Positions 35,081 to 52,234 of a stretch of 64,000 nucleotides of DNA are shown in pieces. Numbering within the stretch: the stretch's first letter is position 1; each line of letters starts with the position of its first letter. This DNA is from Eunapius fragilis (taxonomy: Eukaryota > Porifera > Demospongiae > Spongillida > Spongillidae): assembly GCA_963681505.1 (NCBI GenBank), contig OY811992.1:3163072-3227071 (forward strand), given 5' to 3'. Below the pieces are notes generated by a model. It had not been told where the DNA came from and did no database searches. It was given only the letters and a program-made list of their open reading frames with translations. Both the position numbers and the translations under genes were made by a program.

Positions 35081-36927
35081 AATATATGGGACAGTGTCCA
35101 GCAAAATCACCCTTCTGGAGTTTTAATTTTATCACTATAAAAATTATACGTTACTCAACGTAGCATATCTTCACAACGGTTTGATGTTTTCCTTTCATAT
35201 TTTGTACACTTGTTTACACATCATTTCTCTCTGTGCAAACCTATTTTGGTGCTCTACATATTTTCCATTCCATGGTTACAATGGTCTCTAACCCAATGGG
35301 TTAAGATTCCACATTTCTCCAGATACGAGTGACGATAACGCGTCAAATTCGGAGTGTACATAGAAGGGTCCTGTAGCTATTGATTTCTGCAGATCGTTAA
35401 GTTTTTTCTTATCCGTTACGGAGATATGGATTTTCAAACTAGCTCTTCATTTCTCGCCACTCACGTTAGCAACCCAATTCCCATTCTCCCGATATGATTA
35501 TGTAATGGACACGCCTTTCCCCCCAAAATTTACTTATGAACCCGGCCCGCTTTGAACTATCGCTCAACTAGCTGCTGCCGGGCCCGTGTGTAGGATTTTG
35601 GAAAGGGGGGTTCGATTAATCGCCAGGGTATAAAGGGGCCGTCGGTCAAGAAATACGGCGAAGTGCGGGGAAGCTTTGAGTATCGTTAAAAGTATTCTTC
35701 CATCAGTCACACAACATCAGCCCTCTCTACTTCTGTGCACACAAGATCAGTCCTCAGCTCCACTTCAGACACAAGGTCAGTCCTCTCCACGTCAATGCAC
35801 ACAGACATGGGATCAGATTGAGAGTCAGTGCGAGATAGATAATTTGTAGGTCAGTGGCTATGCTCTCTGTAGGGCCTACTATCAGCCGAATGAGATGGCA
35901 TATTATCAATATGATCGGTACAATGTCGAAAGTACTTGCATGGTGATATTGCCTTGCTTCTGATTGCCACCACTGAGTCTTTTACGTGTCGCCATTTTCG
36001 ATCTTAACCGAAGGGGAAGGAGCCGGGCCCGGAGGGGGGGGGGGGGGGGGGGGGGGGGTCGATCGAACCCACTGCCCACGGGCCTAGCAGCTGCTACCAG
36101 TGCTACGTGGTGTAGTAGATCAGACGATCGTGTTTCCTACGGTATGTTTCAACATCGCTCGATTTTCCTATGTATCGCTTGTATATGTGTATATGGATGG
36201 ATGTCTGTGTGGTAATGGTAGTTTATATTGTGCGCCCTTTTTCTATATCTGCTCAGTTTGTTGCACTTACATGTTAGCATGCATGTACCATGCCTTCTAA
36301 TCATGGGACCACCTTCTCCACCCTCTACACTAGTATGGGGACCGGATGACTTCAGTTTTTCTGGTACCTGGCATATCCCTCTCTAGACCATTCATATTCT
36401 CAGCTTTTCAAAAATTAATTTGCTCTTACCATAAGCCTACATGTATACATGCTGTGTTTATGTGCTATGTGCATTAATTCACCTCCTATTTGCTGCCCAT
36501 TGATTTTCTTTTCTACGTGCTCCATCTTTTGTTATTTTCTACCTTGTGCATTGCTATTTGCAGTCTAACCGAAACATCTCGGTGATGATTGAAGGAGACT
36601 TCATCTCTCACTGTAGTAGGTGGACACAACTTCCTCCTGGTGTACTAGAGCCACATGGTCGCAACCTTCACCTGGTGCTGTACCATTATCGTGTTCAGCA
36701 TCACCATTGGACACAGTGAAAGGTTGGTTAATTGGGATGTTGGTCCTGTGCCACCCAAACTTGTCTGCAAACTCGTAATGGCAAGGGGAAGCAAATAGCA
36801 GGGCATCTCATGTCTGTTGAAGAGTACTTATGCATCAGTCAAACCTCGGATGCTTCCTTGCTAGCAATTACTTTATCAATGACCGTTTGTTTGACACAAA
36901 CACACACACAAACTCACACAGACATAC

Positions 36928-38752
36928 AATGGTCACCCTTCTCTGCACTCATGGCCACCCTTCTCTGCACTCATGGTCACCCTTCTCTGCACTAATGGTC
37001 ACCCTTCTCTGCACTCATGGTCACCCTTCTCTGCACCCATGGTCACCCTTCTCTGCACCCATGGTCACCCTTCTCTGCACTCATGGCCACCCTTCTCTGC
37101 ACTCATGGTCACCCTTCTCTGCACTCATGGCCACCCTTCTCTGCACTCATGGTCACCCTTCTCTGCACCCATGGTCACCCTTCTCTATACTCATGGTCAC
37201 CCTTCTCTGCACCCATGGTCACCCTTCTCTGCACTCATGGTCACCCTTCTCTGCACTCATAGTCACCCTTCTCTGCACTCATGGCCACCCTTCTCTGCAC
37301 TCATGGTCACCCTTCTCTGCACCCATGGTCACCCTTCTCTGCACTCATGGTCACCCTTCTTTAACTCATGGCCACCCTTCTCTGCACCCATGGTCACCCT
37401 TCTCTGCACTCATGGTCACCCTTCTCTGCACTCATGGTCACCCTTCTCTGCACTCATGGTCACCCTTCTCTGCACCCATGGTCACCCTTCTCTAACTCAT
37501 GGCCACCCTTCTCTAACTCATGGCCACCCTTCTCTGCACTCATGGCCACCCTTCTCTGCACTCATGGTCACCCTTCTCTGCACTCATGGTCACCCTTCTC
37601 TGCACTCATGGCCACCCTTCTCTGCACTCATGGTCACCCTTCTCTGCACTCATGGTCACCCTTCTCTAACTCATGGCCACCCTTCTCTAACTCATGGCCA
37701 CCATTCTCTGCACCCATGGTCACCCTTCTCTGCACTAATGGTCACCCTTCTCTGCACTCATGGTCACCCTTCTCTAACTCATGGCCACCCTTCTCTGCAC
37801 TCATGGTCACCCTTCTCTGCACTCATGGTCACCCTTCTCTAACTCATGGCCACCCTTCTCTGCACTCATGGCCACCCTTCTCTGCACTCATGGTCACCCT
37901 TCTCTGCACTCATGGTCACCCTTCTCTAACTCATGGCCACCCTTCTCTGCACCCATGGTCACCCTTCTCTGCACTCATGGTCACCCTTCTCTGCACTCAT
38001 GGTCACCCTTCTCTGCACCCATGGTCACCCTTCTCTAACTCATGGCCACCCTTCTCTGCACCCATGGTCACCCTTCTCTGCACTCATGGTCACCCTTCTC
38101 TGCACTCATGGTCACCCTTCTCTGCACTCATGGTCACCCTTCTCTGCACTCATGGTCACCCTTCTCTAACTCATGGCCACCCTTCTCTGCACTCATGGCC
38201 ACCCTTCTCTGCACTCATGGTCACCCTTCTCTGCACTCATGGTCACCCTTCTCTAACTCATGGCCACCCTTCTCTGCACCCATGGTCACCCTTCTCTGCA
38301 CTCATGGTCACCCTTCTCTGCACTCATGGTCACCCTTCTCTGCACCCATGGTCACCCTTCTCTAACTCATGGCCACCCTTCTCTGCACCCATGGTCACCC
38401 TTCTCTGCACTCATGGTCACCCTTCTCTGCACTCATGGTCACCCTTCTCTGCACTCATGGCCACCCTTCTCTGCACTCATGGCCACCCTTCTCTGCACTC
38501 ATGGCCACCCTTCTCTGCACCCATGGTCACCCTTCTCTGCACTCATGGCCCCCCTTCTCTGCACCCATGGTCACCCTTCTCTGCACTCATGGTCACCCTT
38601 CTCTGCACCCATGGTCACCCTTCTCTGCACTCATGGTCACCCTTCTCTGCACTCATGGTCACCCTTCTCTGCACCCATGGTCACCCTTCTCTGCACTCAT
38701 GGCCACCCTTCTCTGCACTCATGGCCACCCTTCTCTGCACCCATGGTCACCC
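36928..38752 (+). repeat. 22-bp tandem array, left arm, about 83 copies
   Basis: Units TGCACTCATGGTCACCCTTC plus TC, with a recurrent shorter variant (TAACTCATGGCCACCCTTCTC). The period leaves frames open and produces false ORFs of up to 491 codons. The unit shares TCACCCTTCT with the element tip, in the same orientation. Confidence 0.95.
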
Positions 38753-50385: not shown

Positions 50386-52234
50386 TGTATGTCTGTGTGA
50401 GTTTGTGTGTGTGTTTGTGTCAAACAAACGGTCATTGATAAAGTAATTGCTAGCAAGGAAGCATCCGAGGTTTGACTGATGCATAAGTACTCTTCAACAG
50501 ACATGAGATGCCCTGCTATTTGCTTCCCCTTGCCATTACGAGTTTGCAGACAAGTTTGGGTGGCACAGGACCAACATCCCAATTAACCAACCTTTCACTG
50601 TGTCCAATGGTGATGCTGAACACGATAATGGTACAGCACCAGGTGAAGGTTGCGACCATGTGGCTCTAGTACACCAGGAGGAAGTTGTGTCCACCTACTA
50701 CAGTGAGAGATGAAGTCTCCTTCAATCATCACCGAGATGTTTCGGTTAGACTGCAAATAGCAATGCACAAGGTAGAAAATAACAAAAGATGGAGCACGTA
50801 GAAAAGAAAATCAATGGGCAGCAAATAGGAGGTGAATTAATGCACATAGCACATAAACACAGCATGTATACATGTAGGCTTATGGTAAGAGCAAATTAAT
50901 TTTTGAAAAGCTGAGAATATGAATGGTCTAGAGAGGGATATGCCAGGTACCAGAAAAACTGAAGTCATCCGGTCCCCATACTAGTGTAGAGGGTGGAGAA
51001 GGTGGTCCCATGATTAGAAGGCATGGTACATGCATGCTAACATGTAAGTGCAACAAACTGAGCAGATATAGAAAAAGGGCGCACAATATAAACTACCATT
51101 ACCACACAGACATCCATCCATATACACATATACAAGCGATACATAGGAAAATCGAGCGATGTTGAAACATACCGTAGGAAACACGATCGTCTGATCTACT
51201 ACACCACGTAGCACTGGTAGCAGCTGCTAGGCCCGTGGGCAGTGGGTTCGATCGACCCCCCCCCCCCCCCCCCCCCCCCCCCTCCGGGCCCGGCTCCTTC
51301 CCCTTCGGTTAAGATCGAAAATGGCGACACGTAAAAGACTCAGTGGTGGCAATCAGAAGCAAGGCAATATCACCATGCAAGTACTTTCGACATTGTACCG
51401 ATCATATTGATAATATGCCATCTCATTCGGCTGATAGTAGGCCCTACAGAGAGCATAGCCACTGACCTACAAATTATCTATCTCGCACTGACTCTCAATC
51501 TGATCCCATGTCTGTGTGCATTGACGTGGAGAGGACTGACCTTGTGTCTGAAGTGGAGCTGAGGACTGATCTTGTGTGCACAGAAGTAGAGAGGGCTGAT
51601 GTTGTGTGACTGATGGGAGAATACTTTTAACGATACTCAAAGCTTCCCCGCACTTCGCCGTATTTCTTGACCGACGGCCCCTTTATACCCTGGCGATTAA
51701 TCGAACCCCCCTTTCCAAAATCCTATACACGGGCCCGGCAGCAGCTAGTTGAGCGATAGTTCAAAGCGGGCCGGGTTCATAAGTAAATTTTGGGGGGAAA
51801 GGCGTGTCCATTACATAATCATATCGGGAGAATGGGAATTGGGTTGCTAACGTGAGTGGCGAGAAATGAAGAGCTAGTTTGAAAATCCATATCTCCGTAA
51901 CGGATAAGAAAAAACTTAACGATCTGCAGAAATCAATAGCTACAGGACCCTTCTATGTACACTCCGAATTTGACGCGTTATCGTCACTCGTATCTGGAGA
52001 AATGTGGAATCTTAACCCATTGGGTTAGAGACCGTTGTAACCATGGAATGGAAAATATGTAGAGCACCAAAATAGGTTTGCACAGAGAGAAATGATGTGT
52101 AAACAAGTGTACAAAATATGAAAGGAAAACATCAAACCGTTGTGAAGATATGCTACGTTGAGTAACGTATAATTTTTATAGTGATAAAATTAAAACTCCA
52201 GAAGGGTGATTTTGCTGGACACTGTCCCATATAT

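Follow-up and report, generated by a model that had tools for sequence, protein, structure and literature searches.

The window analysed here, 64,000 nt of contig C22 (OY811992.1) in the 219-Mb, 24-contig genome of the sponge Eunapius fragilis, contains a transposon of ~17 kb (positions 35088-52228) whose two halves form a giant inverted repeat around a 4.7-kb loop that holds one long gene. It is a real giant foldback-like transposon, and its family has been mobile in this genome: precise ends, a fixed 4-bp target-site duplication (TSD) and empty sites are found for the family, and the ends and the TSD for the window copy. We read the element, with a probability of roughly 0.85, as a cut-and-paste DNA transposon of autonomous type, built as a foldback and moved by the protein of its loop gene, which carries the domain DUF7869. 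An earlier note on the window had proposed a foldback-like transposon of unusual size with a single transposase-like gene in its loop, and the ends, the TSD, the family copies, the DUF7869 gene and the 17-kb length bear it out. The parts of the element are the following.

35084..35087, no strand: left TSD, ATAT, its length taken from the empty sites of four other copies
35088..40600, + strand: left inverted arm, 5,513 bp, from arm alignment and blastn
35088..35467, + strand: left conserved terminal inverted repeat (TIR), ~380 bp, starting GGGACAGTGTCCAGCAAAATCACCC, which can be aligned to the ends of two further families
36929..38754, + strand: 22-bp minisatellite of the left arm, ~83 copies, with TCACCCTTCT (10 bp of the tip) present 57 times
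39572..39965, + strand: polypyrimidine (CCT-rich) part of the left arm
40240..40600, + strand: innermost left-arm block, 361 bp, a 93% inverted match to 45269-45629
40688..43411, - strand: probable transposase gene, single exon, 907 aa, with an acidic low-complexity N-terminal part, DUF7869 and a C2H2 finger
40691..40765, - strand: C-terminal C2H2 finger, residues 883-907
41066..41611, - strand: DUF7869 domain, residues 601-782, with candidate catalytic Asp656 and Asp698 inside and Asp577 just upstream
42722..43249, - strand: Asp-rich, then Gly/Gln/Ser-rich low-complexity part, residues ~55-230, coded by simple repeats
45269..52228, - strand: right inverted arm, 6,960 bp, from arm alignment and blastn
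45693..47762, - strand: GAG-rich polypurine section of the right arm, expanded compared with the left
48582..50385, - strand: 22-bp minisatellite of the right arm, inverted, ~82 copies
51849..52228, - strand: right conserved TIR, ~380 bp
52229..52232, no strand: right TSD, ATAT, from flank comparison

The evidence for mobility comes from the ends. Searched across the whole genome with at most two mismatches, the 31-bp tip gave 928+882 = 1,810 matches and its control 0+0, while the general end pattern TATATGGGACAGT gave 857+853 against 11+11 for the reversed control; the 313-bp tip gave 44 matches (40 of 707 candidates scored). We read 34 end-pairs, namely the window element, 14 of 20 tip loci, 18 short-flank pairs and the unit C3:740701-757084. 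The 4-bp flanks are identical in 32 of them, as ATAT in 29 and AATT in three, and TTAA flanks none of the 34. Because ATAT says little about a TSD where the flank is an AT run, we searched with the joined flanks of 17 units for uninterrupted copies of the target (40 of 3,324 candidates scored). Such copies were found for four of the 17 (L013, L020, L023, L043/L044), at 86-99% identity, and a 4-bp duplication is the best among lengths 0-8 in all 11 aligned empty sites. Units with these exact ends insert whole and duplicate 4 bp, and what is duplicated when the gene-less relatives insert is a 4-bp A/T palindrome, ATAT or AATT. The search with the tips and the alignment of copies that the earlier note had proposed thus recovered the same ends on many contigs with a 4-bp TSD. 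The note had also placed ATATAT on both outer sides of the element; these flanks are indeed A/T-rich, and the duplication in the window is 4 bp, looking longer because of the AT run.

The loop open reading frame (ORF) has 917 codons from stop to stop, as previously counted, and 907 from its ATG; shuffling the loop 200 times gave stop-free frames of at most 224. Judged by eye, this gene alone accounts for the ORFs of at least 150 aa in the window element that do not consist of simple repeats. The Pfam model of DUF7869 matches its protein with an E-value of 3.3e-17 (63.1 bits, cut-off 26) and matches nine of nine aligned sequences. The C2H2 finger is under the Pfam cut-off in the window protein; its model fits six of the nine sequences, and some of the nine stop short of the finger. 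Among the 14 families that Pfam listed for these nine sequences at E-values up to 10, there is no MULE (Mutator-like element), THAP or P-type model. The DUF7869 model has 90 matches in this genome when every exon piece is counted by itself, and it has no match in 14 control genomes. A protein search of the same genome gave 66 matches (50 of 2,694 candidates scored), a dozen of them 49-55% identical and with open frames of 722-991 codons. In the alignment of the nine members, which are 49-57% identical to the window protein, 108 columns are invariant, including seven Asp and two Glu. D577, D656 and D698 are invariant in all nine, with spacings of 79 and 42 residues that resemble those of three-aspartate (DDD) catalytic cores. 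Further afield, none of 59 pattern stretches in viral contigs and none of 14 in prokaryote genomes was confirmed as a relative, and the literature searched does not mention DUF7869 or its DNC.GQN motif in three spellings.

The relatives bear the mark of purifying selection. The synonymous rate (dS) is unsaturated in 11 of 28 frame pairs, none of which includes the window protein, and 10 of these 11 give a ratio of nonsynonymous to synonymous rates (dN/dS) of 0.15-0.29. The seven pairs that include the window protein are all saturated: the proportion of synonymous differences (pS) is 0.83-0.87 and that of nonsynonymous differences (pN) 0.29-0.35. Because dN/dS is low and pN lies well under pS, the DUF7869 genes are, to judge from their codons, maintained for their protein.

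The association of gene and ends recurs in other families. A unit of a second family (C3:740701-757084) spans 16.4 kb, has GGGACAGTTCAC ends with a 384-bp TIR at 89.6%, and carries a DUF7869 gene just inside its left end, with inverted 42-bp minisatellite arrays further in. Among the matches listed, its left end occurs at 100% in four places (C3, C6 twice, C7), and five copies of its gene have similar scores among the candidates scored in the protein search. A third DUF7869 gene, at C3:12306244, has an end of similar type 5.6 kb downstream. The ends of the three families align over ~380 bp, a segment that would be the functional end. The gene thus lies beside such ends in three families, in two of which both ends are visible. 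Since relatives with 49-57% identity sit with similar ends in two other families, the transposase is most likely the protein marked by DUF7869. Separately, match positions on C6 (7654496-7686004) outline an apparent 31.5-kb multimer with two family-2 transposase matches 15.1 kb apart and one outer end pair. At C2:9857167, C4:695375, C12:2010313 and other places, DUF7869 matches come as adjacent pieces, as if split by short introns; at C2:9857167 and C12:2010313 there is no GGGAC tip-like end within ~2.6 kb and 5 kb, respectively, and no clear long TIR.

Gene-less copies occur as well. We fetched 20 regions around tips, of which 14 hold both ends, 6.0-9.3 kb apart, and by their sequence can be read as complete arms-only foldbacks. 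They match the window element in the ~380-bp end, in element bases 1105-1243 and in loop-proximal parts; the polypyrimidine and polypurine arms lie between these matching blocks. Residues 231-907 of the window protein have no match in any of the 20 regions, of which L025 is 58% masked (5.8 kb) and seven others contain 200 N each. There is also a class of miniature inverted-repeat transposable elements (MITEs), with several end pairs ~260 bp apart within the first 100 listed TATATGGGACAGT places. The window has a 254-bp MITE of its own (17054-17307), with similar, slightly mutated ends, ATAT near its borders and 85% identity to a MITE on C3 (L040). Many units lie tip to tip: among the 34 units checked (16 tip loci and 18 short-flank pairs), 16 abut another GGGAC-type end across an A/T spacer (L010, L015, L017, L018, L024, L027 and 10 of the 18 short-flank pairs), and the window element does not. 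The pattern looks as if the A/T target of each insertion were re-used. One of these loci, L017 (C7:3772903-3780098), is a 6-kb foldback between 99.7% identical inverted flanks, forming a larger nested palindrome, and its outer flanks each end in the GGGACAGGGTCTGAG tip of another family.

The arms, which the earlier note had put at 5.5 and 7.0 kb, measure 5,513 and 6,960 bp. Over the outer 4.7 kb they differ by 13 mismatches and by gaps that fill 39 columns; one run of 22 gap columns is the size of one repeat unit. By blastn, 35082-39961 and 47373-52234 are 98.0% identical over 4,897 columns, compared with a top inverted match of 32.5 bits for shuffled arms (n=10). The extra purine-rich repeats of the right arm (to 45693) match the left arm at ~73-81%. 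Both arm tips start GGGACAGTGTCC, and the match of the tips seen earlier is nearly perfect, with one difference between the two 313-bp tips; against other copies, tip identity is 91.7-93.9%. The two arms of the window element are far closer to each other than those of most other copies, whose best within-element arm matches are mostly 77-94% (blastn, arrays included; the 99.7% arm match of L017 takes in its flanks). The likeness would be accounted for if sequence had been exchanged or repaired between the two arms of this copy, or if one arm had recently been extended from its partner. We rejected arm divergence as a date of insertion because the window arms may have been homogenised after it, and concerted evolution of arms as a rule is unsupported by the values of the other copies. 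At gathering cut-offs, Rfam has no match within the window.

Several observations weigh against our reading. Flanks differ in two of the 34 end-pairs (L016, L022), and since ATAT makes up 29 of the 32 matching TSDs, chance agreement is likely: 1,000 reshuffles of the pairing gave a mean of 26.7 and a maximum of 31 of 34. No empty site of the window element itself is among the joined-flank matches (40 of 3,324 candidates scored). Nor does its gene have another close copy that is intact: of the full-length matches to a piece of the loop (43300-45250), the nearest is a relic on C10 with 81% identity, and in the 2.0 and 1.5 kb read beyond this relic, matches are confined to the inner arm block and to 71 bp of the gene. 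The three candidate Asp were chosen by spacing from the seven invariant Asp and two Glu. A single-sequence AlphaFold2 model of the DUF7869 region has a confidence score (pLDDT) of 36.9 and gives no usable fold, and a sequence search of the PDB returned no credible match for a DDE/RNase H core. Among the 11 unsaturated pairs, one that is nearly identical has a dN/dS of 0.87 on very few changes. Only one end is seen in the third family. The position of the gene varies by family, since in the second it lies outside the inverted arrays and not in the loop; the gene-in-loop layout proposed in the earlier note therefore describes the window element and is not general, given this 16.4-kb sister. Finally, in two other families the arrays, with units of 42 and 35 bp, show no tip-like overlap.

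The mechanism we propose is as follows. The DUF7869 protein would act as a DDD-type transposase, with Asp577, Asp656 and Asp698 as candidate catalytic residues, would bind the ends, perhaps through its C2H2 finger, and would make 4-bp staggered cuts in A/T palindromes. Gene-less foldbacks and MITEs would be moved in trans. Transposition would need only the outer ~380-bp end; the arms beyond it look dispensable because MITEs lack them and they vary from family to family. Tandem expansion may have built the minisatellite and polypyrimidine arms, and those of this copy may then have been made alike by exchange or repair between them. Later copies could land beside earlier ones, because insertions leave A/T palindromes at their borders.

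To which lineage the element belongs is a matter of comparison with excerpts of published descriptions, and we lean slightly towards a member of the Sola superfamily (Sola2 group) with grown foldback arms, in which case what Pfam calls DUF7869 would be a portion of a Sola2-type transposase. Such a membership would refine, and not oppose, our reading of the element as a DUF7869-driven foldback. Sola2 is described with 4-bp AWWT duplications (ATAT, AAAT and ATTT in Polysphondylium) and an 888-aa transposase (excerpt of PMC3627910), and Sola at large with a DDD transposase, 4-bp TSDs, TIRs of 11-1124 bp and a length sometimes >15 kb (excerpt of PMC10741241). The sponge element resembles these in its ATAT/AATT duplications, 907-aa protein, Asp pattern, ~380-bp end and 17 kb. 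An AWWT duplication flanks 32 of 34 pairs, and 4 bp is best in 11 of 11 empty sites. The D577/D656/D698 triad is invariant in nine of nine sequences, yet so are 108 columns with seven Asp and two Glu. The ~380-bp conserved end fits the quoted TIR range, whereas the full arms (5,513 and 6,960 bp) lie outside it. The likeness is one to published descriptions, and TSD length alone is common to unrelated superfamilies. A literature search on Sola, foldback and transposon listed a single paper, a review of land plants (PMC9033089).

Foldbacks are mostly placed in the Mutator superfamily, with exceptions (excerpt of PMC4079207), one being Galileo, a foldback of the P superfamily (excerpt of PMC3688188). 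The FB/NOF elements reportedly have inverted arms made of tandem repeats and a single gene in the loop. Like these and the Mutator-type foldbacks Tetris and Tm1, the sponge element has long tandem-repeat arms, a loop gene and gene-less copies, and like MuTAnT, as far as an excerpt on it goes, it enters TA microsatellites. It differs in that they have a Mutator-type transposase, in place of which we find DUF7869 and no MULE model in Pfam, and in its TSD of 4 bp, against 8-10 bp in Tetris (PMC4079207) and 7-12 bp quoted for MULEs (PMC10741241). With Galileo it shares foldback arms with internal tandem repeats, a short conserved extremity, arms-only copies and possibly binding sites borne by the repeats. 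The TSD of Galileo is 7 bp, unlike the 4 bp here; its protein has a THAP/P-type domain, of which there is none among our Pfam matches. Galileo TIRs are also shorter, at 0.5-1.2 kb in the excerpt of PMC3688188 against arms of 5.5-7 kb here. Kolobok and piggyBac have in common with our element a 4-bp A/T target duplication, but their target is TTAA (excerpt of PMC9587614). The same excerpt gives hAT, P, MuDR, Kolobok and Dada a C/DxxH signature between the second and third catalytic residues. If we chose the catalytic residues rightly, the DUF7869 proteins do not share it: three positions before the invariant His between D656 and D698 there is C in the window protein, T in seven of eight relatives and I in one.

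The Pfam content and the 4-bp TSD set the element apart as a foldback outside the Mutator and P lineages. Of the independent or unrecognised class proposed in the earlier note, the position outside Mutator and P therefore stands; the novelty is no more than possible, TSD, protein length and Asp pattern resembling the descriptions of Sola and Sola2. A more speculative and rather doubtful extension is that DUF7869 defines an as yet unclassified superfamily of transposases. In animals, its members would have become foldbacks repeatedly, with a new minisatellite on each occasion and independently of Mutator and P; its elements would enter A/T palindromes, among them the ones that earlier insertions of such elements left behind, and in this way build tip-to-tip trains. 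Concerning the protein, the note had predicted a different one, with an RNase-H-like core and a C2H2 finger. It is different in having no Mutator-type Pfam domain, and the C-terminal finger is present; the RNase-H-like core is no more than a candidate (pLDDT 37, no credible PDB match), although three suitably spaced Asp fit it.

The long arms could serve the transposase directly, the minisatellite providing many extra binding sites, as in Galileo, whose arms carry transposase sites (excerpt of PMC3688188). We regard this as possible and rather unlikely. The 22-bp unit includes TCACCCTTCT, which is bases 20-29 of the tip, with 57 exact copies per array; shuffled units match as well in 0 of 2,000 cases for the 31-bp tip and in 15 of 2,000 for the 380-bp end. 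Against this, copies of the 22-bp array are scattered over the genome (486+723 matches, counting those of the window), and the one flank read at each of four arrays elsewhere (0.6-0.85 kb) has no element arm. Because of this dispersal and of flanks free of element arms, chance or capture is possible. These arrays stand alone at C1:10152765, C9:6220287, C9:3826066 and C11:6485345; at one C10 locus, arm-like sequence directly precedes a 22-bp array. The minisatellite may have been exported from the element or captured by it. We tried extra binding sites as a general reason for arms and rejected them, as the 22-bp unit fits and the 42-bp and 35-bp units do not. Elsewhere in the window (4417-4665), a 30-bp tandem repeat whose unit includes GGGACAGTAC resembles the element tip, probably by coincidence.

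It is improbable that the DUF7869 gene is a passenger of elements moved by another transposase, encoded elsewhere. The 20 tip regions without a match to residues 231-907 (5.8 kb of L025 masked) and the unproven catalytic fold of the protein (pLDDT 37) would suit such a passenger, but the gene is the sole ORF of at least 150 aa in the window element that is not simple repeat, and it recurs with the same end type in divergent families, in relatives under purifying selection. Inverted arms this similar are a well-known hazard for assembly, and these are known from the assembly alone, yet an assembly artefact or an immobile host palindrome is very improbable given 1,810 genomic tip matches, the empty sites of relatives and the differences between the arms in number of repeat units and in inner sequence. 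The recurrence of the same ends on many contigs, the imperfect match of the arms and the target duplications on either side of the unit make misassembly unlikely.

Around the element, the window has duplicated segments on either side (27350-29828 and 55203-57705, also at 16-24 kb and 33-34 kb), up to 93% identical over 2.5 kb. It further contains a reduced-folate-carrier gene and an ORF (58008-58499) with a sub-cut-off match to ADH_N_2.

These results give DUF7869, a domain of unknown function, a likely job. They would also add a further transposase lineage with foldback architecture, intact genes and empty sites, which lets one ask why arms built of repeats recur.

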